Of a stretch of DNA of 64,000 bases, positions 36,097-60,240 are shown in pieces; positions within the stretch are counted from its first letter, which is position 1, and every line of letters begins with the position of its first letter. The stretch lies in the NCBI RefSeq assembly GCF_013402875.1, contig NZ_CP058579.1, positions 1,984,001-2,048,000 on the forward strand. The letters are read 5' to 3'. Both the position numbers and the translations under genes were made by a program. Under the pieces are notes generated by a model. That model had not been told where the DNA came from. It saw only the letters and a list, made by a program, of their open reading frames with translations, and searched no databases. The DNA comes from Halorarum salinum (GTDB taxonomy: Archaea; Halobacteriota; Halobacteria; Halobacteriales; Haloferacaceae).

Positions 36097-36741
36097 ATGC
36101 CGACCGATAAGTTCGAAGATGCTGTCCCACTCCCGTTTGGAAACGAGGTGGATCCTGCTGGCCGCAAAGTCTCTGCCACCCCGATCATAGAATTCCGGAT
36201 GGACGACATCACGGTTCAGTCGTCCACGGAAAGGGGCTGGCCGACGCTCATTGTCGGAGACGATGCGGGGACCAGTGTCGGTATTGGCCTGTATTATCCC
36301 GGGGACTGGCACCCCGTCCCGGTAGACGAGATCGATCTCATTCTCAAAGAGGACCAGACCTGGGCAGTTGTTGTCGCGTATCGGACCAGACGGAAGGCCA
36401 TCTCTGACGGGAACTTCGATTTCGGTGAGTTCGAGGGATACGAATGTTATGAGTGGGCCACCGAGGCCCGGATTGAGGTCATCGAGTACTGCACTGCACG
36501 AGGCATCACCCCGATTTTCTGCAACCCAACTGCACCAGATCGGTACATTGCGTACGCCTATCAGGAGGCCGATTCCTTCAACGATCTGGACCGGATATTC
36601 GGGTTATCTCGCTATCCTACAGTGGTGGAGCGGCGGAAGAAACTGGTCAACTATGTGATTCCGCGTGATGAGCGGTGGGCGGACAAAGACACGAGCCTCC
36701 AGGAGATGGCCCAGGATATGTTCGGTGAGGACGACAGTTAA
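36097..36741 (+). CDS. Hypothetical protein, 214 aa
   Basis: A soluble alpha/beta protein. It has strand-rich segments (PIIEFRMDDITVQ, WAVVVAYRTRRKAI), a helix-Cys section (ECYEWATEARIEVIEYCTARG) and a charged C terminus ending in an acidic tail. I recognise no family. It is divergent from the RHH fusion across the GTGCATAC repeats and may be regulated by it. Its 3' end overlaps the small minus-strand genes by four bases. Confidence 0.55.
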   Translation: MPTDKFEDAVPLPFGNEVDPAGRKVSATPIIEFRMDDITVQSSTERGWPTLIVGDDAGTSVGIGLYYPGDWHPVPVDEIDLILKEDQTWAVVVAYRTRRKAISDGNFDFGEFEGYECYEWATEARIEVIEYCTARGITPIFCNPTAPDRYIAYAYQEADSFNDLDRIFGLSRYPTVVERRKKLVNYVIPRDERWADKDTSLQEMAQDMFGEDDS

Positions 36742-36866
36742 AGCGACAGCAAAAGTAGGCCGACACCGAGGTTCCAGGGGAGCAGGTGGTCCACGACCAT
36801 TGCAAGGAATACGACGCCGATGAGGGTGGCAAAGGAAAAGAGGAAGGCGCGAGTAGTATCGTTCAC
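36738..36866 (-). CDS. Tiny membrane protein, 42 aa
   Basis: GTG 36866 overlaps the preceding stop as GTGA. The protein is almost wholly hydrophobic (FLFSFATLIGVVFLAMVVDHLL and LGVGLLLLSL), giving one or two membrane helices. It is the last gene of a four-gene overlapping chain read leftward from 37509. Confidence 0.55.
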   Translation of the reverse strand: MNDTTRAFLFSFATLIGVVFLAMVVDHLLPWNLGVGLLLLSL

Positions 36867-37069
36867 TCTGTCTCTCCCTGAATGAGGCGGCGCTGGCACG
36901 CCGGGTTCTTCCGGAAGTGGACGAGTGTCTTGTCCAAATCCACGCGGTCGTTCTCGTAGTTCGTTGTCTTCGTCGGCATCGCTTCGCCGCAGAACCGGCA
37001 CGTCTTCGGCGGGTTCAACGTGTACGTATCACCGACCACTGGAGCCACCTCGTTGTTCATCCCGGTCAT
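36863..37069 (-). CDS. Small zinc-finger protein, 68 aa
   Basis: CRFCG in the middle and HFRKNPAC near the end give a C-x2-C...H-x5-C zinc knuckle, framed by charged residues. It may bind nucleic acid or protein. It overlaps genes on both sides (40 bp upstream, 4 bp downstream). Confidence 0.6.
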   Translation of the reverse strand: MTGMNNEVAPVVGDTYTLNPPKTCRFCGEAMPTKTTNYENDRVDLDKTLVHFRKNPACQRRLIQGETE

Positions 37070-37190
37070 GACGCCCAGCGAATAGCTGGTGCAGTCGTCG
37101 ACGGGCGTCCCGCCAGTACAGGCCGAGCGCTACCCCTAGTGCGAGTACGGCACTCAGGATAATGAAGACTCGAAGGAGGACATCAGTCAC
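37029..37190 (-). CDS. Tiny membrane protein, 53 aa
   Basis: GTG 37190 opens a frame with one membrane helix (VFIILSAVLALGVALGLYW), a basic segment (RDARRRLHQLF) and a charged tail, ending at TGA 37029-37031. It overlaps the regulator upstream by eight bases and the zinc-finger gene downstream by 41, in keeping with the chain. Confidence 0.55.
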   Translation of the reverse strand: MTDVLLRVFIILSAVLALGVALGLYWRDARRRLHQLFAGRHDRDEQRGGSSGR

Positions 37191-37509
37191 CGTAGCCACC
37201 CTGTTGTGCTTGGTCGAGGAGTTCCCAGTACACCATCTTCTGTCGCTGTTTCCGTCGCTCTTCTGGCACCTGTACTTCTATTATATCTTCAGCTACAAGC
37301 ACGTCAGCGATCTGTGGAAGGATTGTTTTCCGGAGACTGGCTTCCGAGTAGTTGGTTTGCCGGTCAGCGGTTTCTGCTGCTAAATCGGACTGCAATACCC
37401 TACCTTGTTCGTGGAGATATGGCCACAACGCGTGGTAGGTTTCCCGGAGACTGTCCGATCGGTCGAGTTCCGAGAAATCTGCTTCTGGTGGTTCGGTTTC
37501 TGTAGACAT
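37183..37509 (-). CDS. Winged-helix regulator, 108 aa
   Basis: ATG 37509 is chosen because the TATA box (37535-37544) is about 30 bp upstream. The middle (LWPYLHEQGRVLQSDLAAET, SLRKTILPQIADVLVAEDII) looks like a winged helix with a wing rich in Lys/Arg (PEERRKQRQKMVYWELL). It heads the four-gene minus-strand chain. The 36-bp palindrome directly beside its TATA box is a likely binding site for this protein (autoregulation). Confidence 0.6.
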   Translation of the reverse strand: MSTETEPPEADFSELDRSDSLRETYHALWPYLHEQGRVLQSDLAAETADRQTNYSEASLRKTILPQIADVLVAEDIIEVQVPEERRKQRQKMVYWELLDQAQQGGYGD

Positions 37510-37583: not shown

Positions 37584-37712
37584 AAGCGATAGCGGCCACA
37601 GACCACCTGATTCACAGGAATACTGGACACTCGATGGTTCTTCGGGGCGTTTCGCATTAGTCCCTCAAATGAAACTTATTTAATATTGTAAGAATCTTAA
37701 AACAAATAGAAG

Positions 37713-37919
37713 GTGACAGCATTGGCAGACTATGCAGAATTTTTCGCAGTATCATTGACGAGCGGTTTCGTCTACTTTTTCTCTGGCGGTCTAATCACCG
37801 CTGGACTTGAAACAGGAGACTTACTGGTTGGCGGGATGGGTGTGTTAGGGCTCTTCGGCAGTCTCGGCGTCACTCACGAGCTCGCAAAGGAATACGGAGA
37901 GAAGGACGACGAAGCGTGA
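37713..37919 (+). CDS. Small membrane protein, first gene of the plus-strand array
   Basis: 68 residues from GTG 37713, about 34 bp after CTTATTTAAT (37675-37684). A hydrophobic section (FAVSLTSGFVYFFSGGLITAG, LLVGGMGVLGLFGSLGV) gives two helices, and a charged tail (KEYGEKDDEA) follows. Its stop lies in GTGATAGCGATG, where the next gene's GTG starts. It opens a nine-gene chain to 39497. Confidence 0.6.
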   Translation: MTALADYAEFFAVSLTSGFVYFFSGGLITAGLETGDLLVGGMGVLGLFGSLGVTHELAKEYGEKDDEA

Positions 37920-38188
37920 TAGCGATGGAGGAGATCGTATTCGAGGGCGAGGTCGAGCACAACGAAACTCCGATCGACGGAAAGCTCGGGATCTGGTTGA
38001 ACCGGAAGAGTTCCAGCTTTCTCAAAAACCTGCTGCACTGGGCCACGTTCCGTCTTTTCGGCTTAAATCGGCACGTGATTACCCTGCCAGCGGATAAGGA
38101 ACAGGCAGGAGATTGGCGATATGGAGAGACGGTCCGCGTCGTTGTTCAGAAACCGGACCTGGACGACATAGACGGTGATAGCAATTAG
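37916..38188 (+). CDS. Small soluble protein, 90 aa
   Basis: GTG 37916 (ATG 37925 alternative) starts inside the previous stop. The N-terminal strands (IVFEGEVEHNETPIDGKLGI) and a middle of basic and aromatic residues (FLKNLLHWATFRLFGLNRHV) are followed by the tail RVVVQKP...DGDSN. That tail is the array's shared junction sequence. It has no recognisable family. Confidence 0.55.
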   Translation: MIAMEEIVFEGEVEHNETPIDGKLGIWLNRKSSSFLKNLLHWATFRLFGLNRHVITLPADKEQAGDWRYGETVRVVVQKPDLDDIDGDSN

Positions 38189-38450
38189 AAGAATAACTGT
38201 AGACGACAACTTTGACTGGATCCAGGCATGTAAGCGGATAATTCAGAGACCGACGATGCAGCTGTTCCCGCTGTGGTTGGCGCACGAGATGTTCACGGGC
38301 TGGAACGACACGCTCCTCGGTGCAATCATCGATGCTATGGGCGGGTATACCGCTGCGATGGTGTTCCAGGTCCTGATCGTGTTAGCGTATCTGGTTCCTG
38401 AACATGTCGACGTACGTTTGCAAACGAACACTGAGGGTGATGCGAAGTGA
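38175..38450 (+). CDS. Small membrane protein, 91 aa
   Basis: GTG 38175, in the GTGATAGC junction, gives a basic N terminus (RRITVDDNFDWIQACKRIIQR) then two hydrophobic stretches (LFPLWLAHEMFTGW, AAMVFQVLIVLAYLV). It ends LQTNTEGDAK. It overlaps its upstream neighbour by 14 bp. Confidence 0.55.
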   Translation: MIAIRRITVDDNFDWIQACKRIIQRPTMQLFPLWLAHEMFTGWNDTLLGAIIDAMGGYTAAMVFQVLIVLAYLVPEHVDVRLQTNTEGDAK

Positions 38451-38719
38451 CATGGATTCCGAATTGCGATGTGTGCGGTGGTAATATCGATGAAGACGAG
38501 AAAACCGTTCAGATCCTCATTGGCGATTTCAAGCGCAATACCACAATCCTTGGGCGCAATAGGTTGAAGCGAGGAACCCGGTCACGTTCTTTCATTCATC
38601 GGAAGTGTATCTCCGGATTTGAGCGCGACGATCAAGGCAAAGAATGTCTCGCCATTGCTCAGCACCTCAGTAGTTCCGAAGATTCGCAACAGAAAACGCA
38701 GGGTGAGCATAGTGGATGA
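38447..38719 (+). CDS. Small zinc-binding protein, 90 aa
   Basis: From GTG 38447. CDVC near residue 9 and HRKC in the middle give a four-ligand zinc site. Between them lies a basic stretch (FKRNTTILGRNRLKRGTRSR) suited to nucleic acid binding. The tail reads QQKTQGEHSG, nearly identical to QKTQGENTG at the end of the 62543-62740 gene in the second array. Confidence 0.6.
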   Translation: MTWIPNCDVCGGNIDEDEKTVQILIGDFKRNTTILGRNRLKRGTRSRSFIHRKCISGFERDDQGKECLAIAQHLSSSEDSQQKTQGEHSG

Positions 38720-38909
38720 AGACAGAAAACTGATTGCGCGGACAGCGAACCGGCTATGCGATGAATATGAGATCCGTGGAGGCATGGCTATTGGCCGCCA
38801 CATCGCATTAAGTGAGTTCGTTGAGCGCGTATTCGATGCCAGGGAAGACGTACTGAACGACCGAGACAAACCAGAATACGTTCAGAAAGAGAGTGATAGC
38901 CCTGAGTAG
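38703..38909 (+). CDS. Small helical protein, 68 aa
   Basis: Starts at GTG 38703 inside the junction repeat. It is charged and helical (DEDRKLIARTANRLCDEYEI, ALSEFVERVFDAREDVL) and may be a small DNA-binding or helix-bundle protein. The tail is EYVQKESDSPE, the same pattern as in the next gene. Confidence 0.55.
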   Translation: MSIVDEDRKLIARTANRLCDEYEIRGGMAIGRHIALSEFVERVFDAREDVLNDRDKPEYVQKESDSPE

Positions 38910-39117
38910 CATCGTAGGAGAGATCGCTGAAAGTTCATTCCTCATCGGCGTGGCAGCGATGTTGGGACCGTTGGCCGGAGTTGTTACGGTCGGGTTGATG
39001 GGTCACTCAGGCCTTCAGGGGTTGATGGCAGCCGGTGCGGTTGGCTCATCCGTCGTTCTGATCTATAACACGTTGAAAGATGAGTTCGTCCAGAAAGAGG
39101 ATGGTAGCGGTGAATAA
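38893..39117 (+). CDS. Small membrane protein, 74 aa
   Basis: GTG 38893 lies in GTGATAGCC. It is rich in Gly and Ala, with two membrane helices (FLIGVAAMLGPLAGVVTVGLM and LQGLMAAGAVGSSVVLIY). The tail EFVQKEDGSGE repeats the array motif. It overlaps both neighbours by about 16 bp. Confidence 0.6.
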   Translation: MIALSSIVGEIAESSFLIGVAAMLGPLAGVVTVGLMGHSGLQGLMAAGAVGSSVVLIYNTLKDEFVQKEDGSGE

Positions 39118-39244
39118 CCCGTTCGTCATCTTGCTTGGTGCGGCACTCAGTCTATTGTTAGCAGTACCACTGGTTGTCTTCTTATTTTGGGTGACAGAAC
39201 GACTCACACGACCAGATTGCGTTCGGAAAGAGGGTGATAAGTAA
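39101..39244 (+). CDS. Tiny membrane protein, 47 aa
   Basis: ATG 39101 within ATGGTAGCGGTG opens a protein of one long helix (FVILLGAALSLLLAVPLVVFLFW), a charged turn (VTERLTRP) and the tail DCVRKEGDK. The stop at 39242 lies in the next junction, GAGGGTGATAAG. The size, hydrophobicity and conserved tail make it a real gene. Confidence 0.6.
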   Translation: MVAVNNPFVILLGAALSLLLAVPLVVFLFWVTERLTRPDCVRKEGDK

Positions 39245-39255
39245 TCTTCTGCATT

Positions 39256-39417
39256 GTGTACATCTTGGCCTTAGCAGCTGTCTCAATTGCAGGGCTATTC
39301 ACGGGGCATCCAGAAGCGTTGATCGTCTGGTTCATTTTGCTATTCACAGGCTGCAGGTCCGGATCGCAGGAAGAAACACCAGAACCCGTCCAGAAAACGG
39401 AAAGGGATAGCCAATGA
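39256..39417 (+). CDS. Tiny membrane protein, 53 aa
   Basis: The frame holds a hydrophobic segment (VYILALAAVSIAGLF) and another (ALIVWFILLFTG), ending EPVQKTERDSQ, the array tail. GTG 39256 is the first standard start. The frame is open back to a stop at 39238-39240, so a nearby non-standard start is possible. The competing frame from GTG 39235 is Arg-rich and lacks the tail. Confidence 0.5.
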   Translation: MYILALAAVSIAGLFTGHPEALIVWFILLFTGCRSGSQEETPEPVQKTERDSQ

Positions 39418-39497
39418 TCACGATTGAAACCACGCAGGAGGGGTTGTTCATACTCGCAGTACTGGCTTTGGCAGGGTGGATACTGTGGAAACTGTAG
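39414..39497 (+). CDS. Micro-protein, one membrane helix, 27 aa
   Basis: ATG 39414 overlaps the previous stop (ATGA). The sequence is MITIETTQEG followed by a hydrophobic helix (LFILAVLALAGWILW) and KL. It closes the array. Confidence 0.45.
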   Translation: MITIETTQEGLFILAVLALAGWILWKL

Positions 39498-39648
39498 GGT
39501 TCGTACGCAATGATGGTGGTGCTCATGATTAGGCCAATGGTTGAGTCAACGGTCAACACTTTGCTTTGGTTCCATTACAGCGCCAGTGGGACGGAGCTGC
39601 TCGAGTCAGGAGAATACGAGCGCAAAACTGGCGCAGAGGGAGATACCA

Positions 39649-39975
39649 GTGCAGACTGACTACACCGACCCCGACGACGACAACCAAGATTTCTCCAACG
39701 TCATTATCCAAGGGCCACGGCACAACCGTAAACCGGCTTGCCGGGACCACGGCGCGATGAACAAGGTGTACGTCGACGACGAGAAAGCGTTCTGGCAGTG
39801 TCAGGCCATCACCGAACGAGGAGACGGCCATCTTGAAGTCACCGAGACCTGTGATGCCGCCTGCAAAGAAGTACAGGTGGAGGATCCGGTCGGCTTCGCA
39901 TTCAATGCTGACTACGACCAGCCACGCATCGATCCCGCAAACACACCACGGTCCACGTTCCGGAAAGACAGGTGA
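39649..39975 (+). CDS. Zinc-motif protein, in frame with the integrase
   Basis: 108 residues from GTG 39649 (preceded by AGAGGGAG). It is acidic at the N terminus (DYTDPDDDNQDFSNVI). A possible zinc site follows (PACRDHG, WQCQ, TCDAAC). It ends at TGA 39973-39975. The recombinase frame continues without shift directly after this TGA and has no standard start of its own. The two may therefore be one gene of about 440 residues split by a nonsense codon, or the TGA may be read through. Confidence 0.55.
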   Translation: MQTDYTDPDDDNQDFSNVIIQGPRHNRKPACRDHGAMNKVYVDDEKAFWQCQAITERGDGHLEVTETCDAACKEVQVEDPVGFAFNADYDQPRIDPANTPRSTFRKDR

Positions 39976-39978
39976 TAC

Positions 39979-40974
39979 CTGATCGACGGCAACACACTCG
40001 CGGATATCGACGACCTCGAACCCCTCTTCAAGCAATGGTGCCAAGACTCCGGGAACAGCGCAAGCACCGCCACCACCTACTGGCAACGCATCCGCCACTT
40101 CCCATCCTTCCAGCTCCGCGACAGCGACCAGACCGAGCTCATCGGCAAACTCAACAAGGAGATCGAGACATCCGAACAGCTGACCGCCGTCCGCCAGTTC
40201 ATCCAGTTCCTCTACGAAGAATACGAGAAGAACGAGGTCTCTGATGAAGCCTACACCGCCCTCCAGATCAAGAAGAACGCGGTGCTCGCGAACCTGGAAC
40301 TCTCGAAGAAAGAGAAGGCCCGGAACCGGGACGATCGCCAGATCAAGCGCATCCAGGAACACCATCTCCACGCCGACGAGCTGGTCCGATTGCTGGAAGC
40401 AGCCGCACCTGCCCGCGCCCGCTTCTATTACCTGCTGTATGCTGGCGGGTTCCGCATCGGCGAGTTGAAACGCCACGGCCGCAAGCATCTGCGCCCGGAC
40501 TACGGAACTTACGGGGCGATCAACATCCTGCGGACACAGCACCTGCCGGGACAGGGTGAAAATCGCAGCAGTAAGAGCAAGCAGAGTCGGACCGTGGAGT
40601 TCCTGTCGAAATACCCTACCCTAATCTTGGAGGATACGCCCGTCGGGACGTGGATGGATGAGAACGACGTCGAATGGACCGAGGTGTTCTTCCCGGAGTA
40701 CTACGCGCAACTCGAGAACCACTACTTACGAAAATACTGCAACAAGATTGGCGTCCACCGGGTGACGCCGCACAGCTTCCGGCACATGCGGATCACCCAC
40801 CTCGTCCACAGTGACGACCACGAGAAGGATTGGGTGCAGCGCCGGTCCGGCCACGCCGACGGGAAGACGACCGACCACTATACCCAGACGGTGTTCGATC
40901 GTGAGCCGCAACCGCTCGAAACCTACCTTGAGGAGAACGATATCGATCTGATGGACGTGCTTGCCGCACACTGA
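39979..40974 (+). CDS. Tyrosine recombinase (integrase), start unclear
   Basis: About 331 residues. An N-terminal SAM-like domain (LEPLFKQWCQDSGNSASTAT, then TYWQRIRHF) precedes the catalytic domain, with AGGFRIGELKR (catalytic Arg), HSFRHMRITHL (His/Arg box), SGHADGKTTDHYTQ (second His and nucleophilic Tyr). All key residues are present. In frame the first codon after TGA 39973-39975 is TAC then CTG 39979; no ATG, GTG or TTG occurs before 40282, which would cut off the N-terminal domain. So it starts at CTG, or belongs to the upstream frame and is disrupted. Confidence 0.8.
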   Translation: MIDGNTLADIDDLEPLFKQWCQDSGNSASTATTYWQRIRHFPSFQLRDSDQTELIGKLNKEIETSEQLTAVRQFIQFLYEEYEKNEVSDEAYTALQIKKNAVLANLELSKKEKARNRDDRQIKRIQEHHLHADELVRLLEAAAPARARFYYLLYAGGFRIGELKRHGRKHLRPDYGTYGAINILRTQHLPGQGENRSSKSKQSRTVEFLSKYPTLILEDTPVGTWMDENDVEWTEVFFPEYYAQLENHYLRKYCNKIGVHRVTPHSFRHMRITHLVHSDDHEKDWVQRRSGHADGKTTDHYTQTVFDREPQPLETYLEENDIDLMDVLAAH

Positions 40975-49936: not shown

Positions 49937-50169
49937 GTACTCAGCTTGATACGGCGGTCCGTCCGGCCGATACCCATCAAGCGTCGTCTGTTCGACTGGC
50001 CATCACCGCACAATCTGGAAAACATGAATTTTATACCAGTTTTGGTTCCAACACGGCGGCTGCTTGCGGTTATTACTTTCACCCTGGCCAGGTGACCTTT
50101 TTCAGGTAATTAACCGAATAGCAAGGTAGAGAGCCCCGGCCAGAACCGCTCCCGTTGGAGGAACAACCG

Positions 50170-50571
50170 ATGCCCACATTCGAGGTCGATACCACGAAAA
50201 TACCGGCCTTCAAAGTCGAAGATACGTATCTCTTCAAACACTACTTCGATGAAGAGGACGTCTTCACTCTCCTCCAGGAATACTATTTACAAGACAAATA
50301 CCGGTTCGAAATACCGGCCAGCGACTACACCAAGGTGCAACAGCAGCTTGAAAACTACTTCTACGAACTTCAGAGAGAAGACGACCTGACACCCTACTGT
50401 GTCGTGGTAGAAAAGGGTACGGACTATGCAGACATCCTCCGAAACGCAGTCCTAACGAAAGAGCGAAGTGGCCATCTCATCTTCCTCTTGAAAGATAACC
50501 TCTCGGTGGAACAGGCAGTTGAACACGGCGCTATTCGGCTCGCAGAATCGACCCTAAATGAGGACATCTAG
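50170..50571 (+). CDS. Hypothetical protein upstream of dndC
   Basis: 133 residues from ATG 50170; the preceding GGAGGAAC is a Shine-Dalgarno. It is soluble and rich in Tyr/Phe and acidic residues (TYLFKHYFDEEDVFTLLQEY, QQLENYFYELQREDD), with a later strand pattern (YCVVVEKGTDYADILRNAVL, GHLIFLLKDNLS). I recognise no family. It lies 83 bp before dndC, separated from it by a short palindrome, so it may belong to the same module as a regulator or accessory. Confidence 0.5.
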   Translation: MPTFEVDTTKIPAFKVEDTYLFKHYFDEEDVFTLLQEYYLQDKYRFEIPASDYTKVQQQLENYFYELQREDDLTPYCVVVEKGTDYADILRNAVLTKERSGHLIFLLKDNLSVEQAVEHGAIRLAESTLNEDI

Positions 50572-50607
50572 GACTCAAAATCGACTGATCACTCCGGGGG
50601 CACCGGC

Positions 50608-50621
50608 AGCTACAAGTAGCT
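50608..50621. promoter_or_regulatory. Palindrome upstream of dndC
   Basis: AGCTAC AA GTAGCT, a perfect 6-bp inverted repeat about 34 bp before ATG 50655. The following AAAACTAAAT is the only AT-rich stretch, so the palindrome could be a terminator for the previous gene or an operator. Confidence 0.4.
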
Positions 50622-50654
50622 CGGCTAAGGCAATTCACTCACGCAAAACTAAAT

Positions 50655-52142
50655 ATGAGTACTGAGAAAGTGGAGGTTTCTGAAAGCGAGCAAGAGAAAG
50701 GCACGTCAGTCTTTGATGACAACTCGCTCTCAGACATCCACAAGGAGATTCAGGATACCTATCTTGCAGACAACCGGCCGTGGGTAATCGGATACAGCGG
50801 CGGGAAGGACTCCACGACGGCCCTCCAGCTCATTTGGTACGCTATCAAGGAACTTCCGGAAGAGGAACGAACGAAACCGGTTTACGTTATTTCTAGTGAT
50901 ACATTAGTTGAGACTCCGAAGATCGTCAACCATATCATCACGACACTGGAGAATGTTAACGAATTCTCCGAGAAAGACGATCTTCCGTTTCAGGCGCATA
51001 AGGTCACGCCCCAGGTCGATGATTCATTCTGGGTCAACCTGATTGGTCGCGGCTATCCTGCCCCGAACCAGACCTTTCGCTGGTGTACCGAACGCCTGAA
51101 AATCGACCCCGCAGACCGGTTTATCGAGGAAACCGTCTCAGAACACGGTGAAGTCGTTGTAGTCCTCGGTGCCCGAAAGGCAGAGAGTGCAACCCGGAAG
51201 CAGGTTATGGAGCTGCACGAGATCGAAGGCAGCGTCCTCTCCCGACACTCAAAATTCGCGAACGCATTCGTCTATACACCGATCGAGGACTGGCTAGTCG
51301 ACGACGTCTGGTCGTACCTCCTGCAAGTCGACTGCCCGTGGGGGAAGAACAACCGCGACCTCGCAGCCCTCTACCAGGAAGCCGATGACGAATGTCCGAT
51401 GGTGATCGACACCAAGACACCGTCCTGCGGAAACAGCCGATTCGGTTGCTGGACCTGCACCGTCGTCAGCGAGGACAAGGCGATGCAGAATATGATCGAC
51501 GAAGGCGATGACTGGATGGAACCCCTCCTCGAGTTCCGTGACTTCCTCAAAGGAACCCAGGACCCCGATAGGAAACCCCATTATCGTCAGGTCAAAGGCC
51601 GGCAGCACGGGTCGGTCCGGACGAAGACGAACGGCGATGATGGGATCATTCCCCGCGCCCACAAATTCGAGTTCTGCAAGGACCTCCTCGAGAAGCTACT
51701 GCAGACACAGAAGGAGGTGAACGAACAGCTTCCCGCAGACGAAGAGATGGACCTGATCCAGGACGAAGAGCTACGCGAGATTCGGCGTCTCTGGCGGGAA
51801 GAGCGGGCTGACTGGGCAGACTCCGTCCCGAAGATTTACGAGCGAGTGATGGGCGAGGAACTCAACTGGGTCCATGACGACCTCGGTTCGTTCGGGGAGA
51901 CTGAGGCAGCGGTACTGAAAGAGGTCTGTGAAGACCAGGACCTGCCTCCCGAACTCATCCAGCGCCTGCTCGACACAGAACTGCAGCATCACGGGATGAA
52001 GCGGCGGGCGTCTATCTACAATGAGATTGATAAGGTGATGAAAGAGGACTGGCGGATACAGGACGAGATCGTTGCTGAGATAGAGGGTGAGGAGAACGTT
52101 GAAAAATGGCATTACACCGAAACAGATCGGCCAGACCTCTGA
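50655..52142 (+). CDS. dndC: DndC, DNA phosphorothioation PP-loop protein
   Basis: 495 residues. The PP-loop GYSGGKDSTTALQL (about 43-56) activates DNA by adenylation as in PAPS-reductase-like enzymes. Cys residues in WCTERLKI and CPMVIDTKTPSCGNSRFGCWTC (about 142 and 253-273) can hold the [4Fe-4S] cluster of DndC. It takes sulfur from the cysteine desulfurase and puts it on the DNA backbone with DndD and DndE. It is the first gene of a tight eight-gene set. Confidence 0.95.
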   Translation: MSTEKVEVSESEQEKGTSVFDDNSLSDIHKEIQDTYLADNRPWVIGYSGGKDSTTALQLIWYAIKELPEEERTKPVYVISSDTLVETPKIVNHIITTLENVNEFSEKDDLPFQAHKVTPQVDDSFWVNLIGRGYPAPNQTFRWCTERLKIDPADRFIEETVSEHGEVVVVLGARKAESATRKQVMELHEIEGSVLSRHSKFANAFVYTPIEDWLVDDVWSYLLQVDCPWGKNNRDLAALYQEADDECPMVIDTKTPSCGNSRFGCWTCTVVSEDKAMQNMIDEGDDWMEPLLEFRDFLKGTQDPDRKPHYRQVKGRQHGSVRTKTNGDDGIIPRAHKFEFCKDLLEKLLQTQKEVNEQLPADEEMDLIQDEELREIRRLWREERADWADSVPKIYERVMGEELNWVHDDLGSFGETEAAVLKEVCEDQDLPPELIQRLLDTELQHHGMKRRASIYNEIDKVMKEDWRIQDEIVAEIEGEENVEKWHYTETDRPDL

Positions 52143-52148
52143 TCTCCC

Positions 52149-54179
52149 ATGAAGCTCAATAAGCTCGTCATCACAGATTTTGGCCCCTATCGGGGGCGGA
52201 ACGAGTTCGATCTGAAGACCACGCCTGAATCACCGGTCATACTGTTCGGTGGGAGGAACGGAGCAGGGAAAACGACGCTCTTCCAGGGCATCCAGATCTG
52301 TCTCCATGGCCGGAGTGCGTTAGGCCGACGGACAAGCGAGGGAGAATACAAAGATCTGGTCCGAAGCAAACTTCACGACTACCCGGACGAATCCGCTACA
52401 GAGGCCTCGATCCGGTTGGAGTTCGAGTACGCCCATATGGGCGAGGTAGACCATTACACGGTCACCCGGTCGTGGCGTGACCGAGGCAAAAGTATCGTCG
52501 AGAATCTGGATGTCCGGCGGAACGGGAACCTTCCATCAGACCTTGACAAAGAGCAGTGGGAAGACTTCTTGAAAGAACTCATTCCCCCAGGTGTCTCACA
52601 ACTGTTCTTCTTCGACGGCGAGAAAATCCAGGAGTTGGCGACTGCAATCGAGGACGACGACAGTTTCGAAGACTCTCTACTGTCGCTCCTCGGACTAGAA
52701 CTCGTTGATCGCCTCGATGCAGACCTCTCGATATATGTCTCGCAGAAGATCGATGAAAGCGGCGTTGAAGGGATTAACGAGGAGCTGAACGAACTCCGGG
52801 AGACAGAAGAGGAGTTCAAGCAGGAGATGGCGGACCTCCAAGACGCACGAACGACTAGGGAAGAGGAACTGGCGGAAGTCGAAGAGAAGATCGACTCAAA
52901 AGAGGCCCAGATTGCCAAGGAAGGCGGAGCCTATGCTGATAAACGCGAGGAGCTGAAGGACCGGCGCGTCGAGCTGGACACGAAAATCGACCGCCGGAAG
53001 GACGATATCCGTAGTATTGTCACCGGGGCGTATCCGTTCGCCCTGGCACCGGACCTGTGCCAAAGCGTTGTGGACCGGTTACAGACAGAGAGCGAGCAGC
53101 AAGAACAGGCGGCCGCCCGTGAGCGACTATCGGAGGAGCTGGATACGTTACTGGCGCAGGACAATCTGCTGACCGAGACGGATATCCCGGACGATGCCTC
53201 TGAGCAGATCACCACACGCATCAGAACGGCGATGGAGGACCGACTGGTCGAGGGGTCAACGGAAAGTAAGTTGCTCCACCAGTTCTCTGCAACCCAGCGC
53301 CAAGAGATGTACTCTCTTGTTGACCAAGCGCTCAACGATGTCCCAGCTGAACTTGGTGAGGCAACCACAGAAATGGAATCGATGGTCCGAGAGCGCCAGC
53401 AGATCGAAGAAAAACTGGGTCGGGCACCAGACAAAGAGGTGCTCTCGCCACTCGTCGATGAGCTGAACGATCTCACAGAACGCCGGGGGGCCCTCAAGTC
53501 CGAGTTAGAGGATCTGGAAGAGGAGATCGGTAAGATGGAGACGAAGCTCAGCCGGCTGGAAAACCAGATCGAGAATAAACGCAAGGAGAAGTCCGAGGTC
53601 GAAGGTGTCTCCGAACGGGCGAACCTGGCGAACCGGGTGCAGGCTGTGCTCAAAGAGTACCGAGAGGAGATTGCAGAGGAGAAGCTGCGCCAGCTGGAAT
53701 CCGTGTTGAGCGAGCGGTATCTTGCGCTCTCGAACAAGAGCGAGTTCTACGACAAGGTCGTGGTCGAGGAAGGTCAGTTGAACATCTTCGTGGAAACGAT
53801 TCACGGCAACCGTAAACCACAGTCTGACCTTTCAGCAGGAGAACGCCAGATTTTCGCAACGTCTCTCTTGTGGGCGCTTGCAGAGATTTCCGGCCGGCCG
53901 CTACCGTTTATTGTTGACACGCCGCTTGGTCGTCTTGACCAGCCGCACCGTGAGAACCTTGTTCAGAACTTCTTCCCGGAGGCTTCCCACCAGGTGCTCG
54001 TGTTCTCGACGGACACGGAGATCGACAACCAGCATTACGATGACCTATCCGAGTCGGTGGCACAGGCCTACCACCTGGACTATAACGAGATGGACGGCTG
54101 TACGGACGTGTCCACCGGATATTTCTGGTCGGGAAACCCTGACTCGGAGAAAGCCAGCATCGAAGGAGTGACGCAATGA
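52149..54179 (+). CDS. dndD: DndD, SMC-like ATPase of phosphorothioation
   Basis: 676 residues. Walker A GGRNGAGKTTLFQGI (about 34-48), a central coiled coil, a signature LSAGERQIF (about 561-569) and Walker B PFIVDTPLGRLD (about 583-594). DndD-type proteins use ATP to reshape DNA for sulfur insertion. It follows dndC by six bases and overlaps dndE by four. Confidence 0.93.
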   Translation: MKLNKLVITDFGPYRGRNEFDLKTTPESPVILFGGRNGAGKTTLFQGIQICLHGRSALGRRTSEGEYKDLVRSKLHDYPDESATEASIRLEFEYAHMGEVDHYTVTRSWRDRGKSIVENLDVRRNGNLPSDLDKEQWEDFLKELIPPGVSQLFFFDGEKIQELATAIEDDDSFEDSLLSLLGLELVDRLDADLSIYVSQKIDESGVEGINEELNELRETEEEFKQEMADLQDARTTREEELAEVEEKIDSKEAQIAKEGGAYADKREELKDRRVELDTKIDRRKDDIRSIVTGAYPFALAPDLCQSVVDRLQTESEQQEQAAARERLSEELDTLLAQDNLLTETDIPDDASEQITTRIRTAMEDRLVEGSTESKLLHQFSATQRQEMYSLVDQALNDVPAELGEATTEMESMVRERQQIEEKLGRAPDKEVLSPLVDELNDLTERRGALKSELEDLEEEIGKMETKLSRLENQIENKRKEKSEVEGVSERANLANRVQAVLKEYREEIAEEKLRQLESVLSERYLALSNKSEFYDKVVVEEGQLNIFVETIHGNRKPQSDLSAGERQIFATSLLWALAEISGRPLPFIVDTPLGRLDQPHRENLVQNFFPEASHQVLVFSTDTEIDNQHYDDLSESVAQAYHLDYNEMDGCTDVSTGYFWSGNPDSEKASIEGVTQ

Positions 54180-54586
54180 GCAAGGAGTTCAACCGCGTGC
54201 AGATCGGGTCTGATGCTACGACCCGGCTCCGCATGTTGAAGGGGGATACTCAGATCACCCCGAATTTCCTGTGTCGAATCGGACTGTGCTATTCGTTGAA
54301 TGAGCCCCGACCGCCGAACCCGGCTCAGTATGATTCCGATGGCCAGACGTTCAATCGGTACACGCTCCTGGGGGAGCACGATGCGCTGTACATGGCGATG
54401 CTGAAAGAGCGTCTGCTGCAGGAAGGCCTGGATCCGGAAGAAGACCTTGAAGACCAGTTCGTGGCTCACCTGAACCGCGGCGTGATCCGAGTATTCGGGA
54501 ATATCGACAATCTCGATGACTTCTATAACTTGATTCCGAACGGGCTCAAGGAGACGTCAGTTGATGCAGCCGGTGATGCAGAATGA
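54176..54586 (+). CDS. dndE: DndE, DNA-binding phosphorothioation protein
   Basis: 136 residues, the usual DndE length. It has the pattern RVQIGSDATTRLRMLKGDTQ, then PNFLCRIGLCYSL (helix with a conserved Leu/Cys core) and QTFNRYTLLGEHDALYMAML, typical of DndE, which binds nicked or modified DNA as a tetramer. It overlaps dndD and dndA with ATGA junctions. Confidence 0.9.
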   Translation: MSKEFNRVQIGSDATTRLRMLKGDTQITPNFLCRIGLCYSLNEPRPPNPAQYDSDGQTFNRYTLLGEHDALYMAMLKERLLQEGLDPEEDLEDQFVAHLNRGVIRVFGNIDNLDDFYNLIPNGLKETSVDAAGDAE

Positions 54587-55767
54587 GCACCGGGGATACG
54601 GACCAGGCGATCTACCTTGACCATCACGCCACCACTCCGGTTGATGAGCGGGTCGTGGAGTCGATGCAGCCATACTTTACCGAGCAGTTCGGGAATCCGG
54701 CGAGTGATGACCACCTGTTTGGTGCCAAGGCGAAGCAGGGTGTTGAACAAGCACGTGAACGGATTGCGGACGCTATCAACTGCCGGAAAGAGGAGATCAT
54801 CTTCACCAGTGGGGCGACGGAATCCGATAATCTCGCGATCCGCGGTGCGGCAGAGCATGCGAAGAAACACGACAAGGGAAACCACCTGATCACGACCGCT
54901 ATCGAGCACGAGGCCGTTCTGGAGACGTGTGAAACCCTTGAGGACGACGGGTTCGACGTTACATATCTCCCTGTTGATGAGGAGGGCTGTGTCGATCCGA
55001 CGGCGGTCGAGGACGCGATCCGCGAGGAGACGATTCTGGTCTCAGTGATGGCGGCGAACAACGAGATCGGGATCGTTCAACCGATCGCAGAGATTGGGCA
55101 GCTTGCCAAGGACAACCAGGTGCTGTTCCATACAGATGCGGTCCAGGCGATCGGCTACCTTCCGGTTGATGTGGCTGAGATGGGGATCGACTTGATGTCT
55201 GTCTCGGCACACAAGATCTACGGGCCCAAGGGCGTCGGTGCACTGTACGTTCGGCGACGCCGGCCAAAGGTGAAGCTCCAGCCCTTGCTCCACGGCGGGG
55301 GCCACGAACGTGGCTGGCGGTCAGGGACATTGAACGTGCCAGCGATCGTTGGGTTCGGAAAGGCGATGCAACTGGCGGACCAGGAGCAAGAGGACCGCAC
55401 GCAGCACGTCGACGAACTGACGTCCTATATGTGGGACCGGATCAGCGACGAACTTGATGACATCGTTCTCAACGGGAGCGAGGAACTGCGGCTCCCGAAC
55501 AACCTCAACATCAGTTTTCTCGGTGTCGAGAACAAGGCCTTAGTGAAGAGCCTGCAACCTGACGTCGCTGTCTCTGCCGGGTCCGCGTGTACGACGGGGA
55601 AAGTGGAGGCGTCGCACGTACTCCAGGCACTTGGCGGTGATGAGGACCGCTGGCACTCGGCCATCCGGTTCGGTGTCGGAAAGGACAACACCACGGAGGA
55701 AATCCAGCACGTGACCGACCGTGTGATTGAGAGTGTCACGCGGCTACGCAAACTACAAATAAAGTGA
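54583..55767 (+). CDS. dndA: Cysteine desulfurase (DndA/IscS type)
   Basis: 394 residues of a class V aminotransferase. YLDHHATTPVDERVV at the start, TSGATESDN, then HTDAVQAIG, SAHKIYGPKGVGALY with the PLP-binding Lys (about 210), and SAGSACTTGK with the catalytic Cys (about 334) are all present. It releases sulfur from cysteine and passes it to DndC. Placement after dndE is the archaeal order dndCDEA. Confidence 0.93.
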   Translation: MSTGDTDQAIYLDHHATTPVDERVVESMQPYFTEQFGNPASDDHLFGAKAKQGVEQARERIADAINCRKEEIIFTSGATESDNLAIRGAAEHAKKHDKGNHLITTAIEHEAVLETCETLEDDGFDVTYLPVDEEGCVDPTAVEDAIREETILVSVMAANNEIGIVQPIAEIGQLAKDNQVLFHTDAVQAIGYLPVDVAEMGIDLMSVSAHKIYGPKGVGALYVRRRRPKVKLQPLLHGGGHERGWRSGTLNVPAIVGFGKAMQLADQEQEDRTQHVDELTSYMWDRISDELDDIVLNGSEELRLPNNLNISFLGVENKALVKSLQPDVAVSAGSACTTGKVEASHVLQALGGDEDRWHSAIRFGVGKDNTTEEIQHVTDRVIESVTRLRKLQIK

Positions 55768-55796
55768 CGAGAAGCTACTCTAGGTAATTAGATTAA

Positions 55797-57968
55797 ATGT
55801 CAGGTGACACCTCGGAGCCCTCCGAATCCGAACAACCGGAGGAGAACGGGCTTCAAACTCTTGACCTGAGTATCAGCTACAGGTCTGGACGGAACGATCT
55901 TCTCAACGAGTTCTACATCCCCTGTTTGAAACAGGCCACCCACTACGACAGAGCTGCTGGCTACTTCGACAGCAAGTCGTTAGTACAAGCCGCACAGGGA
56001 ATCTCCGGGCTGATTCTGAACGACGGGCAGATGCGCCTACTGGTCAGTCCACGACTCAGCCCCGAAGACATCCGTGTACTCGAACAAGCAGCAGACGAGG
56101 ACGAGGAGGAGGGAGATACGGAGGGAGTGATCGAACACGCACTCCACCGCGGGCTGACCGAAGAACAGTTCGCAGATTACCTCAAGCGTGACCGCTTCCG
56201 GTGTATGGCGTGGATGTTGAAAGAAGGGCTGCTCGAAATCCGGATCGCATATCTTTCGGACGCTAATACTCCGGAGGAGGCTAACCCGTTCCGCCATTAC
56301 CACGAGAAAATCGGTGTGCTGTCCGATGACTACGGGAACAAAGTCTCGTTCACTGGGTCGATCAACGAAACCGAGCTCGGGTGGACAGGGAACTACGAGT
56401 CGTTCAAAGTCTTTCCCAACTGGAAGCCCGGCTTGGGGATGGTAACGGTCGAGGACGAAGACGACTTCAACCGACTGTGGGAGAACCGGGATCCGAAAGT
56501 CACGGTCAAGGAACTGCCCGATGCTGTTGAGACGGGATTAGAAGAACACAGTCCGGACACGGTAAACGGCCGCCCTGACCTGGAACAGTTTGAGGACGAG
56601 GATGACGGTGGGTCTGGTGATACACCGGGCGATATCCCACTGTGGGACCATCAACAGGAGTCCATCGACCGATGGATCGCCAATGACTACCGCGGGATTT
56701 TCGCGATGGCAACCGGGACCGGGAAAACGCGGGCCGCGATTAGTGCGGCGAACCTCGGTGCTGACACGCGGCTGTCGGTGGTTGCTGTGCCCAGTTCACC
56801 GCTGCTCACCCAGTGGAAGGAAGACATTCAGGAGTTAATCCCGAAGGCTGAGGTCCTTGTCTGCAACTCTGATACGAACTGGCGCAAGCGCATTTTGGAC
56901 GTGGTGAGCCCCTACAAATTGGGCGAGCCCAAGTATATCCAGGACCGGCCGAAGCAGTTCATTGTCACCACGATCGACACGGCAATCGGTGATACGTTCC
57001 AGAGCTTCGTCCGTGACATCTCATCTGAACACATCCAGGTGGTTGCAGACGAAGTGCACGGGTATGGTGCGGACACGTACAGGCAGCTTTTCGATATCGA
57101 TGCCGGGCGGCGGGTTGGCCTCTCCGCGACCCCAGAACGACGGTTCGATGATGAAGGAAACCAGGAGATTATGGGGTACTTCGACGATATCATCTTCCGT
57201 TTCGAGACGGCTGAGGCCATCGAAAACGGGTATCTCTCTGAATACGATTATCACCCGCTGATCTGTGAGCTGGATGAAGAGGAGTACGAGGAGTATCGGA
57301 AGTACAGCCAGATGATCGCCCAGGTGCACAGCAAGTTGCAGAAAGCCAAGGCAGGGTCCAAACGGGAGCTCCGGAAGAGGGATGAGCGGCTGAAACGCGA
57401 CCGGGCGAAGATGCTGAAGAAGGCAGAGGCGAAACCCGGGCGCTTCGGGAGGTTCCTGGACACTGAACACCCGACGCCAGCCATCATCTTCTGCGAAGAT
57501 AACGAGCAGGTGGACGCGATCCAAGATCAGCTGCGGTCCAAAGGAAAATCGTTCGCCGTCTATGTCTCAGACATGGATGATGAGAAGCGGGCCAGCTCGT
57601 TTTACAAATTCGAGAACGATATGGTGGACTACCTGCTCGCGATCAACTGTCTTGATGAGGGTATTGACGTCCCCAAGTGCCCGACAGCAGTAATTATTTC
57701 AAGCTCCAGTAACGAGAGACAGTTCATCCAGCGAAGAGGTCGCGTACTCCGAAAAAGTGAAGAGAAAGCGAAGGCCGTGCTATATGATATGATTACGCTG
57801 CCGGGACTATCCGCTGAACAAGGCGATGAATCAGCACGGCGGTTCATCGAAAAGGAGCTCAAGCGAGGCAAAGTGCTGATGGAGGCAGCGAACAACCGGG
57901 AACAGGTCAGACTTGATCTCCGGGGAGAATTACAGCCCTACGGATTCGGTCACCTTGCATACCTATGA
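55797..57968 (+). CDS. PLD-domain SF2 helicase, PbeA-like
   Basis: 723 residues. The N-terminal third has a phospholipase-D-type nuclease pattern: RAAGYFDSKSLVQAAQGISG and HEKIGVLSDDYGNKVSFTGS (His/Lys and Asn/Ser box, about 168-187). An SF2 helicase follows, with MATGTGKTRAAIS (Walker A, about 304), VVADEVHGYGA (DEVH box, about 416), LSATPERR and QRRGRVLRKSE (motif VI, about 643). It starts the restriction half of the locus, 29 bp after dndA. In the archaeal Dnd-Pbe system the partner genes block the replication of unmodified viral DNA. Confidence 0.85.
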   Translation: MSGDTSEPSESEQPEENGLQTLDLSISYRSGRNDLLNEFYIPCLKQATHYDRAAGYFDSKSLVQAAQGISGLILNDGQMRLLVSPRLSPEDIRVLEQAADEDEEEGDTEGVIEHALHRGLTEEQFADYLKRDRFRCMAWMLKEGLLEIRIAYLSDANTPEEANPFRHYHEKIGVLSDDYGNKVSFTGSINETELGWTGNYESFKVFPNWKPGLGMVTVEDEDDFNRLWENRDPKVTVKELPDAVETGLEEHSPDTVNGRPDLEQFEDEDDGGSGDTPGDIPLWDHQQESIDRWIANDYRGIFAMATGTGKTRAAISAANLGADTRLSVVAVPSSPLLTQWKEDIQELIPKAEVLVCNSDTNWRKRILDVVSPYKLGEPKYIQDRPKQFIVTTIDTAIGDTFQSFVRDISSEHIQVVADEVHGYGADTYRQLFDIDAGRRVGLSATPERRFDDEGNQEIMGYFDDIIFRFETAEAIENGYLSEYDYHPLICELDEEEYEEYRKYSQMIAQVHSKLQKAKAGSKRELRKRDERLKRDRAKMLKKAEAKPGRFGRFLDTEHPTPAIIFCEDNEQVDAIQDQLRSKGKSFAVYVSDMDDEKRASSFYKFENDMVDYLLAINCLDEGIDVPKCPTAVIISSSSNERQFIQRRGRVLRKSEEKAKAVLYDMITLPGLSAEQGDESARRFIEKELKRGKVLMEAANNREQVRLDLRGELQPYGFGHLAYL

Positions 57969-58177
57969 GTACTGACGAAGCCGACATCGACGACAAAATT
58001 CTGGAACTCATCGCCGAACAGGCAGACGAAAAGAACATCCCGGAAGACCTTCTCATCGAGATCTACAAGCTCGAGGATCGGATGGTCGAGATGGGGCGGA
58101 GAGAGGGACTCCCCAAAAAACTCCGGAAAATCCTCCAGGGCTACGTCGACGAGGATAATGAGATCAGCAAATCATGA
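57965..58177 (+). CDS. Small helical protein, PbeB-like
   Basis: 70 residues, highly charged (DDKILELIAEQADEKNIPED, IYKLEDRMVEMGRREGLPKK), helical throughout. It overlaps both neighbours by four bases (ATGA), so it is a real gene of the locus. It could bridge the helicase and the SMC-like ATPase. I have no family name for it. Confidence 0.75.
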   Translation: MSTDEADIDDKILELIAEQADEKNIPEDLLIEIYKLEDRMVEMGRREGLPKKLRKILQGYVDEDNEISKS

Positions 58178-60240
58178 AGATAGTCAATGTTACTCTGAAG
58201 AATTTCTTGCCGTACTACGGCGAGATTGAAGTTCCTCTCCAGACGGATACGGACGCTCCACTGATTCTGATGGTCGGGGAGAACGACCGGGGGAAAACAG
58301 CGTTCCTGAACGCGCTTCAGTGGTGTCTCTACGGGTTTGACGGGAATCCTCCCGAGAAGCGGGCGAAGCGGCGCAGTGCGATCAATCGCCGGGCTGCAAC
58401 CGAAGGGGACGGGGAGACAAGCGTCACGGTGGAGTTCACGCATCACGGGACGGTTCACCGCATCCGTCGCTACATCACGTTTGAAGGGGTGGATGACCCT
58501 GACGACCGTGAACCGGGTGACAGCGCGGTAATCGTTGAGCGACCAAGTTCTGGGAGTGGCTATGAGACGGTTATCTCGAAGCGGGATAGCACCGAGGACT
58601 ACAATGAGTTTATGAACAGCATCCTTCCGGAGACTGCTTCTGATTTCTTCTTCTTTGACGGTGAGAAGGTTGGCAGCCGGTACGCGGGGACGCAGGATGG
58701 TGAACGTGACAAGGACGACATCCGGAAAGCCATCGAGACCGTTCTCGGTATTCAGCAGATCCAGAAGTCGATCGAGGATCTGGACCGGTACGGGCGGAAG
58801 CACTACAGTAAGCTGTACCACGAGGCTGAGTCGAACGTTGACGATCTGCAGGAGCTGAAAGACAATATCGCGGACAAAGAGGACGAGCTCCAGGCTCTTC
58901 GGACGGAGAAGGACTCTGAAGATCAGCGGTTAGAAACCCTGGAGGAGAGTTTGGCTGCTGTCAAGGAGGATATCGCTGAAGCTGCAGGGTATGAGGAAGC
59001 TCACAATGACATCCAGGAGCTGACTGAAGCACTGGAGGGTGACGATGAGGATGAAGAGGACGAGGGCCTTTACGGGGAGCTACAGGCCAAAGAAGAGGAG
59101 AAAAAAGAGTACCACACCCGGCTTGGGTCTCTTATCACCGGGATTGGGTCAGAGCATATTGATGACGAGATAGAGGTCGAAGGCGTCAGTGGGGAGGTTG
59201 AGATCATCCGATCGTTACTCGAGGAGCCCCGGTGTGTGTGCGGCACCAAGATCGGGGAGAAGGAACGGGAGAACCTAGAGGACGTTCTCGAAGAGATGCA
59301 GACCGATGATGGACGGCAAATCATCGATCTGAATGATACGGCCTCCAAGCATATCGACTGCCTGCGGGAGGAGAGCGGTGGCAAAGACGTCCGAGGAACC
59401 AAGGTCAGCTACCACGAAATCCGCGAAGATATCAATCGGATTGATCAGGAAATCGAGCAGAGCGAAGGCCGGATCGAGGAACTCAAAGAGGAGATTGAGG
59501 ACATCAATGTCACTGGTGAAGACCTGCAGCGACTCCGGAAACAGGAGGAAGATCTCAACGACCAGGTCATCGATACCAAGGCCACTATTGAACGGCTTGA
59601 CCGAGACATCAACAAGCTTGACTCCAAGATCGACCAGTTGAAGGACCGGGAGGACTCGATGGAGGGCGCGACTGACGAGGAGGAACGGTATCGTACCCTC
59701 CGCAACCTCTCCGAGAAATGCCGTGATGCTTGGGAAGAGATCAAAGAGGAGTACGTTAAGACGCGTCGCCAAGACGTTGAGGACCACGCCTCCAGTGTCT
59801 TCACCCGGCTAACGAACAAGAACGAGGTCTACAAGGGCTTGGCCATCAGCGAAGATTACGACCTGGATATCATCACCAAATCTGGGCGGCGGTCCATCGA
59901 GGAGCAGGACCCGAGTAAAGGTGCTCGGCAGATCATCGCGTACTCGTTCATCGCTGGCCTCAACAAATACACGGCACGTGACGCTCCGATCGTCATCGAC
60001 ACGCCCATTGGGCCCTTGGACAGTACTCACAAGCACAACCTGATCGATTACCTTCCCGAGTTCAAGGACCAGGTGGTCATCCTGTACCAGCCGGAGGAGC
60101 TCCACCAGAGTGACCTTGACCAGATCGACCAGCATACGACGCGTCACCTCCAGATCCGGGTGTCTGAGGAGGACCCGGAGTGCTCGGTGGTTGAAGAAGT
60201 CGAGCCGAAGGTTGATCTTGGGGAGGTGTTGGTCCAATGA
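58174..60240 (+). CDS. SMC-like ATPase (second DndD-type protein), PbeC-like
   Basis: 688 residues. Walker A VGENDRGKTAFLNAL (about 35-49), a long coiled coil interrupted by RCVCGTKIGE (CxCG zinc-hook-like, about 352), a signature-like SKGARQIIAY and Walker B PIVIDTPIGPLD (about 604-615). It is homologous in plan to DndD but has a hook-like turn as in Rad50. It may sense or bring together unmodified DNA for the restriction module. Confidence 0.85.
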   Translation: MKIVNVTLKNFLPYYGEIEVPLQTDTDAPLILMVGENDRGKTAFLNALQWCLYGFDGNPPEKRAKRRSAINRRAATEGDGETSVTVEFTHHGTVHRIRRYITFEGVDDPDDREPGDSAVIVERPSSGSGYETVISKRDSTEDYNEFMNSILPETASDFFFFDGEKVGSRYAGTQDGERDKDDIRKAIETVLGIQQIQKSIEDLDRYGRKHYSKLYHEAESNVDDLQELKDNIADKEDELQALRTEKDSEDQRLETLEESLAAVKEDIAEAAGYEEAHNDIQELTEALEGDDEDEEDEGLYGELQAKEEEKKEYHTRLGSLITGIGSEHIDDEIEVEGVSGEVEIIRSLLEEPRCVCGTKIGEKERENLEDVLEEMQTDDGRQIIDLNDTASKHIDCLREESGGKDVRGTKVSYHEIREDINRIDQEIEQSEGRIEELKEEIEDINVTGEDLQRLRKQEEDLNDQVIDTKATIERLDRDINKLDSKIDQLKDREDSMEGATDEEERYRTLRNLSEKCRDAWEEIKEEYVKTRRQDVEDHASSVFTRLTNKNEVYKGLAISEDYDLDIITKSGRRSIEEQDPSKGARQIIAYSFIAGLNKYTARDAPIVIDTPIGPLDSTHKHNLIDYLPEFKDQVVILYQPEELHQSDLDQIDQHTTRHLQIRVSEEDPECSVVEEVEPKVDLGEVLVQ

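Follow-up and report, generated by a model that had tools for sequence, protein, structure and literature searches.

Predicted Shine-Dalgarno joints and single-gene exchange in small-gene arrays of haloarchaea

Organization of the small-gene array

In the 64,000 nt of the Halorarum salinum genome analyzed here (the window), very small genes on the plus strand follow each other with overlapping ends, and similar sequences recur where one gene passes into the next. The question raised by this locus is whether the joints resemble each other as edges of exchangeable gene cassettes, as had been proposed from the letters alone (the sequence-only reading), or for a more ordinary reason.

The array is carried by a haloarchaeal genome of 4.26 Mb. 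From the sequence and the ORF list, 11 small plus-strand genes were identified at 37722-39975, most of them overlapping, followed by an integrase gene (Table 1). The sequence-only reading had described nine tiny overlapping genes with a shared junction. The array and the recurring joint were confirmed, but the count was too low, since 11 genes are present up to the integrase. Its statement that the products are unrelated was borne out by the ORFs from 37713 onwards. The distance between stop and start ranges from an 11-nt overlap to a 5-nt gap in 10 of the 11 joints, the spacing between genes 9 and 10 (a 12-nt gap) being the outlier.

For the small array genes, no family above noise was found in Pfam, PHROGs or NCBIfam, and the divergent small gene (37183..37509, minus strand) likewise matched no family. 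By tblastn, the array genes were without a match to known haloviruses among 50,697 phage records, and phage and plasmid searches using the array DNA and the concatenated proteins were also without a match. Among genomes of the same genus, no syntenic empty site was found that corresponds to the sequence on the right side of the array. Elsewhere in the window, PADLOC models identified a DNA phosphorothioation defence island (50155-60734; DndC, DndD, DndE, DndA, PbeA, PbeC, PbeD), and two HerA/mads_8-like ATPases are located at 12448-13986 and 15115-17232 in an apparent large mobile region.

Table 1. Genes and joints of the array and its surroundings (positions in the window; SD, Shine-Dalgarno).
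Feature	Position	Strand	Joint and start	Remarks and basis
SD-like sequence and gene 1, membrane protein	37709..37919	+	GAAGGTGAC; TTG 37722 (SD spacing) or GTG 37713	Stop 37919; sequence, ORF list
Joint 1 and gene 2	37913..38188	+	CGTGATAGCG then ATG 37925	Sequence, ORF list, SD duplex energy
Joint 2 and gene 3, membrane protein	38173..38450	+	GGTGATAGCA then ATT 38184	Putative ATT, from spacing
Joint 3 and gene 4, CxxC protein	38432..38719	+	GAGGGTGATGCGAA then GTG 38447, 4-nt overlap	dG -12.4
Joint 4 and gene 5, helical protein	38692..38909	+	CAGAAAACGCAGGGTGAGCATA then GTG 38712, 8-nt overlap	Tail VQKESDSPE
Joint 5 and gene 6, membrane protein	38883..39117	+	CAGAAAGAGAGTGATAGCC then CTG 38902, 8-nt overlap	Tail VQKEDGSGE
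Joint 6 and gene 7, membrane protein	39091..39244	+	CAGAAAGAGGATGGTAGCG then GTG 39110, 8-nt overlap	Tail VRKEGDK
Joint 7 and gene 8, membrane protein	39224..39417	+	CGGAAAGAGGGTGATAAGTA then ATC 39244; next in-frame GTG 39256	Tail VQKTERDSQ
Joint 8 and gene 9 (27 aa)	39391..39497	+	CAGAAAACGGAAAGGGATAGCCA then ATG 39414	
Gap and gene 10	39498..39659	+	12-nt gap without motif, then ATG 39510	Tail GAEGDTSAD; dG -4.7
Joint 10 and gene 11, zinc-type protein	39636..39975	+	GAGGGAGATACCA then GTG 39649, 11-nt overlap	Exchanged module
Joint 11 and tyrosine integrase	39969..40974	+	AGGTGATAC then CTG 39979 or ATC 39982	Pfam PF00589, E 9.9e-12
Divergent small gene	37183..37509	-	GGTGGCTACG then GTG	Winged-helix-like by eye; tail QQGGYGD
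Three more small overlapping genes	36738..37199	-	Tight SD joints of similar kind	ORF list

Conservation of the joint sequence

Variants of GAGGGTGATA(G/C)C were found in 10 of the 11 joints. The exception is the one preceding gene 10 (39497/39510), which has no motif and a dG of -4.7. With up to two mismatches, AGGGTGATAGC was matched 24 times in the window compared to 12.3 expected matches, and the matches cluster, seven of them following each other on the plus strand between 37710 and 39647. The motif also occurs before gene 1 (AAGGTGACAGCATTG at 37710), where no upstream gene exists; it is thus not purely a gene-gene joint. The mean pairwise identity of the joints in the array was 0.64 in the core and 0.35 just upstream. 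No two joints are identical over the full 18 bp, strong sharing being confined to the core. The claim of conserved joints in the sequence-only reading therefore holds for the recurring core, but not for the complete sequence, nor for every joint, nor for joints exclusively.

The sharing of exact 6-8-mers among the joints was not significant compared to host junctions. A search for the CAGAAAGAGGGTGATAGC pattern with 2 mismatches in 392 genomes resulted in scattered matches and no second cluster, and an IMG/VR scan for GAGGGTGATN{2,6}TGAGTGA was unspecific.

The joint core as a Shine-Dalgarno site

The 3' end of the 16S rRNA in this genome is ..GGATCACCTCCT (also given as ..CTGGATCACCTCCT), so that GGTGAT represents a perfect SD sequence of 6 nt. 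GGTGAT is followed by the start of the next gene after 4-5 nt in almost all joints. The SD duplex energies of the array joints (median -9.3 kcal/mol) match those of closely spaced gene pairs of the host (n = 73; median -9.4 kcal/mol), the host statistics being drawn from 400 kb with a home-made gene caller. Within-gene controls were weaker than both (median -6.45) in an initial comparison with preliminary array starts. The register of the SD differs from that of the host: GTGAT was found in 6 of the 11 array joints and in 3 of the 73 host pairs (p 8e-5), whereas GGAGG, present in 14 of the 73 host pairs, never occurs in the array. In the upstream frame, the SD reads GAG GGT GAT and encodes E-G-D, which explains the acidic tails.

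From these data, the joint core appears to be primarily a site of ribosome binding in coupled translation, formed by an SD site and a stop/start overlap. This ordinary cause was overlooked when the joints were taken to be conserved as cassette junctions; SD sites combined with stop/start overlaps are also found in host operons and haloviruses.

In Haloferax volcanii, termination-reinitiation was shown experimentally at overlapping gene pairs with an intragenic SD (Huber et al. 2019, PMC6728339), although SD motifs were dispensable or partly needed in some pairs (PMC6728339). The array described here resembles these coupled pairs in the stop/start overlap, the position of the SD inside the upstream gene, the haloarchaeal host and a comparable SD strength. 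It differs from them in the run of ten joints, the near-uniform SD register, the apparent near-cognate starts and its location in a mobile element.

The early arrays of the haloviruses BJ1 (AM419438) and HF2 (AF222060) likewise consist of small genes (about 30-160 aa) with overlaps of 1, 4, 8 or 11 nt, while neither has sequence homology to the array. BJ1 shares the strong SDs in the gene tails (median -11.3; tails QEV, QEGD and RQEGDDA) but has mixed SD registers. HF2 differs by weaker SDs without GGTGAT, so that a uniform register cannot be taken as the rule. Since both haloviruses have similar arrays, translational coupling would account for most of the pattern. The BJ1 integrase was considered as a close relative of the integrase adjoining the array and was rejected on comparison.

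Arrays in other haloarchaeal genomes

A longer array was found in genome G347, which belongs to another family of the order. Its joints include GAGGGTGATACC, GAGGGTGATACG, GAGGGTGATATCG, GAGGGTGGTAGCG and GAGGGTGATAACG as well as further ones, and the GTGAT register is present in 8 of the 15 junctions listed. Further arrays of the same architecture and register are located in G428 and G349. The core identity between joints of different arrays was 0.69, compared to 0.64 and 0.72 within arrays; such an equal likeness is as expected from a shared function. In addition, GAGGGTGATANCNNTGA is scattered in other haloarchaeal genomes, with 17 matches compared to 2 for the reversed control. The large gene preceding the G347 array (L054 10300-11976) is HerA/VirD4-like by eye.

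Exchange of single genes at the joints

Gene 11 was found again in the G347 array with a protein identity of 67% and a DNA identity of 73%. The homology begins at the SD core (window 39639), and both the upstream sequence and the upstream genes are unrelated between the two arrays. A decayed copy in G366:C4 (L236 about 1117-1248, minus strand) is interrupted by a stop, has a third upstream sequence and also begins at the joint. The upstream neighbour of gene 11 is a different one in each of the three genomes, and the last residues of the upstream frame (GDTSAD, GDIGAD and GDTGTD) are written by the SD and start of gene 11 itself.

The other case is a G347 cassette of about 135 aa, absent from this window, which recurs in G349, of the same genus, with a DNA identity of 75%. 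The homology spans from AAGAGGGTGATA to AGGGTGATACGC, i.e., from one joint to the next, and beyond these points the identity is at background level. The flanking genes are unrelated on both sides, and 12 bp are identical at each edge. The edge of homology coincides with a joint on both sides of this cassette and on the 5' side of gene 11 (n = 2 modules). When gene 11 and the G347/G349 cassette were used as queries in alignment-based scans of contigs from viruses and genomes, no confirmed relative was obtained. IMG/VR matches to gene 11 (L082-L084) were discarded, as they contain no arrays and represent bacterial-phage-like contigs sharing only the KPACRDHGAMN zinc motif. The short zinc-motif proteins with GKPACRDHGAMN encoded there are similar to gene 11 in its N-terminal part.

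The check suggested in the sequence-only reading, a search for the same joint next to different genes elsewhere, was thus positive for gene 11 in three genomes and for the G347/G349 cassette. By sequence comparison, single-gene mosaic exchange with edges at the joints is shown for two cassettes. The proposed cassette exchange holds in the form of joint-precise gene swaps in this class of arrays, for gene 11 alone in the present one, whereas a dedicated mechanism that would use the joint is not supported, as neither a cassette recombinase nor, by eye, an inverted-repeat site was found. The core identity is already about 0.69 among unrelated joints of these arrays. The SD constraint alone would give an equal identity at the edges, so that the likeness of the joints is no proof that the joint causes the exchange. 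Exchange edges would also be found at joints because only those exchanges that keep the SD survive.

Similar single-gene swaps at gene boundaries, with unrelated neighbours and shared C-terminal tails, are described for the mosaics of lambdoid phages and mycobacteriophages (Island3 gp67/gp68, PMC3029335). The haloarchaeal arrays differ from these in that the boundary is an overlap of SD, stop and start, in their archaeal origin and in the many joints of the same type per operon.

Start codons behind the joints

Where SD and start are 4 nt apart, the GTG contained in the SD precedes the start by exactly 9 nt and shares its frame (ATG 37925, ATT 38184, CTG 38902 and GTG 39110). For this reason, ORF callers as well as the sequence-only reading take this GTG as the start. 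The GTG within GTGATAGC most likely belongs to the SD instead. The idea that the junction sequence supplies a GTG start is accordingly disfavoured, as the GTG (e.g., 38175) would sit inside the SD with the starts 9 nt downstream.

Near-cognate starts (CTG, ATT or ATC) are predicted for several genes. ATT 38184, CTG 38902 and ATC 39244 are placed at the right SD spacing and are read as putative starts. In the G347/G349 cassette, the two genomes differ at the CTG codon, which is CTA in one of them, but share the ATT behind it, pointing to ATT as the probable start. In the G349 array (L250 about 8223-8245, minus strand), a second joint with an apparent ATT start was observed (GGTGATAGCTG then ATT).

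From the stop at 39973 up to residue 102 (40282), the integrase frame is free of ATG, GTG and TTG codons. Homology to the integrase of G036 already sets in at residue 17, ahead of the first GTG. Since the homology precedes the first ATG, GTG or TTG, the integrase would start at CTG 39979 or ATC 39982 behind AGGTGAT, or the TGA would be read through. Gene 11 and the integrase are in one frame, with the TGA alone between them (39973-39982).

C-terminal QK/RK tails

Directly before the SD part, [QR]K was found in 8 of the 11 tails (VQKE, VQKT, VRKE, ERKT, FRKD and others). In tail shuffles a mean of 1.7 was expected, and none of 20,000 shuffles reached 8, the motif having been chosen after the data were seen. 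Elsewhere, [QR]K occurs 4 times in 578 body residues and in 14 of 403 host tails. At the DNA level, CAGAAA, the upstream part of the joint, is present in 5 of the 11 joints and as a 6-mer is not significant compared to host junctions (p about 0.10). A codon-level check of AAA nucleotide conservation in the tails resulted in 11:4 versus 7:8 (p 0.13). The tail-encoding CAGAAA described in the sequence-only reading therefore exceeds the shuffle expectation as a protein motif, but not significantly as DNA. A similar tail is present in G349 (PVKEGDS) and none in the G347 joints. The part of the tail beyond the SD is unexplained by the SD.

In the mycobacteriophage Island3, the unrelated neighbours gp67 and gp68 have 18 C-terminal residues alike, which was explained via recombination between short repeats (PMC3029335). 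By analogy, such recombination may be one possibility for the shared tails of the array.

Weighing of the explanations

That nothing beyond ordinary translational coupling is needed, with the SD making the joints alike and exchange occurring by the usual illegitimate recombination independent of the joint, has about an even chance. The SD strength matching that of host operons agrees with it, as do the equal likeness of joints between and within elements and the scattered occurrence of GAGGGTGATANCNNTGA mentioned above. The GTGAT register, far more common than at host joints, and the QK/RK tail go beyond this explanation, and both exchange cases are edged exactly at joints, though selection alone could produce the latter. 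The shared QK(E) tails as footprints of exchanges or of tandem duplication are a rather doubtful explanation. The identical 12 bp at the edges of the G347/G349 cassette and the resemblance to the shared Island3 tails argue for it; the edge identity is hardly above that of unrelated joints and gives little independent signal, 12 bp are short for homologous recombination, and two cases are known, only one of them in this array. A joint of dual purpose, in which the SD overlap would act in translational coupling and also as a handle for recombination, so that a family of haloarchaeal mobile elements shuffles one-gene cassettes and rewrites the upstream tail with the QK(E) tails as footprints, is considered unlikely.

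The tails could also represent a functional protein motif (a targeting or interaction tag) with a secondary likeness of the DNA. The excess of [QR]K in the tails over shuffles and over the protein bodies fits such a tag, which is nevertheless quite improbable: the proteins bearing the tail share no topology (membrane and soluble), the EGD part alone is conserved in the G347 array, and the motif was picked after inspection. Least probable by a wide measure is an integron-like site-specific system with the joint as the recombination site of the adjoining tyrosine integrase. Like integron cassettes with their attC sites, the array combines exchangeable small genes, a shared joint and a tyrosine recombinase gene alongside, which ends the array behind a joint of its own and is weakly similar to integron integrase models. 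This similarity is far below the cut-off (TIGR02249, 35.5 bits compared to 265). In contrast to integrons, the joints are coding and serve as SD; they are directly repeated in overlapping coding sequence and, read by eye, have no inverted-repeat arms of the attC type. The motif moreover precedes gene 1 and occurs in the arrays of G349 and G428, next to which the stretch read shows no integrase.

The array is probably best explained, on the basis of its sequence, as an operon of small genes within an integrated mobile element, in which SD-overlap joints couple translation and which evolves as a cassette mosaic edged at the joints. It would belong to a haloarchaeal provirus or integrative element and adjoin the integrase of this element. 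Each gene ends in codons (typically ..E-G-D-..) whose bases (GAG GGT GAT) provide the SD of its successor, with the start 4-5 nt further on and usually overlapping the stop. As in Haloferax volcanii, ribosomes finishing one gene may be captured by the SD and reinitiate on the next. In related arrays, single genes have come to lie beside other neighbours, the homology being edged exactly at the joints, so that the operon probably evolves as a mosaic of cassettes. An incoming gene would have to bring or rebuild an SD that is in frame as the tail of its upstream neighbour. Because the SD of the incoming gene must also serve as this tail, selection may keep the joint uniform and mark it as the only tolerated point of exchange. 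Arguing against this explanation are the QK/RK tail, which an SD does not call for and the G347 joints lack, the motif-free joint between genes 9 and 10, the small number of exchanged cassettes (two, one of them in this array), the lack of a uniform GGTGAT in HF2, and the H. volcanii pairs in which the SD was dispensable or needed in part.

Implications

The results caution that a joint conserved among unrelated genes may be an SD site and not a recombination site. If the joint marks exchange points, the cassette edges in archaeal mobile elements would be predictable from SD overlaps. Tiny genes behind joints that start with ATT, ATC or CTG, which are missed or mis-started by callers restricted to ATG, GTG and TTG, could then be found systematically. 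One short sequence would thereby link translational coupling with the modular evolution of mobile elements, which are usually studied apart.
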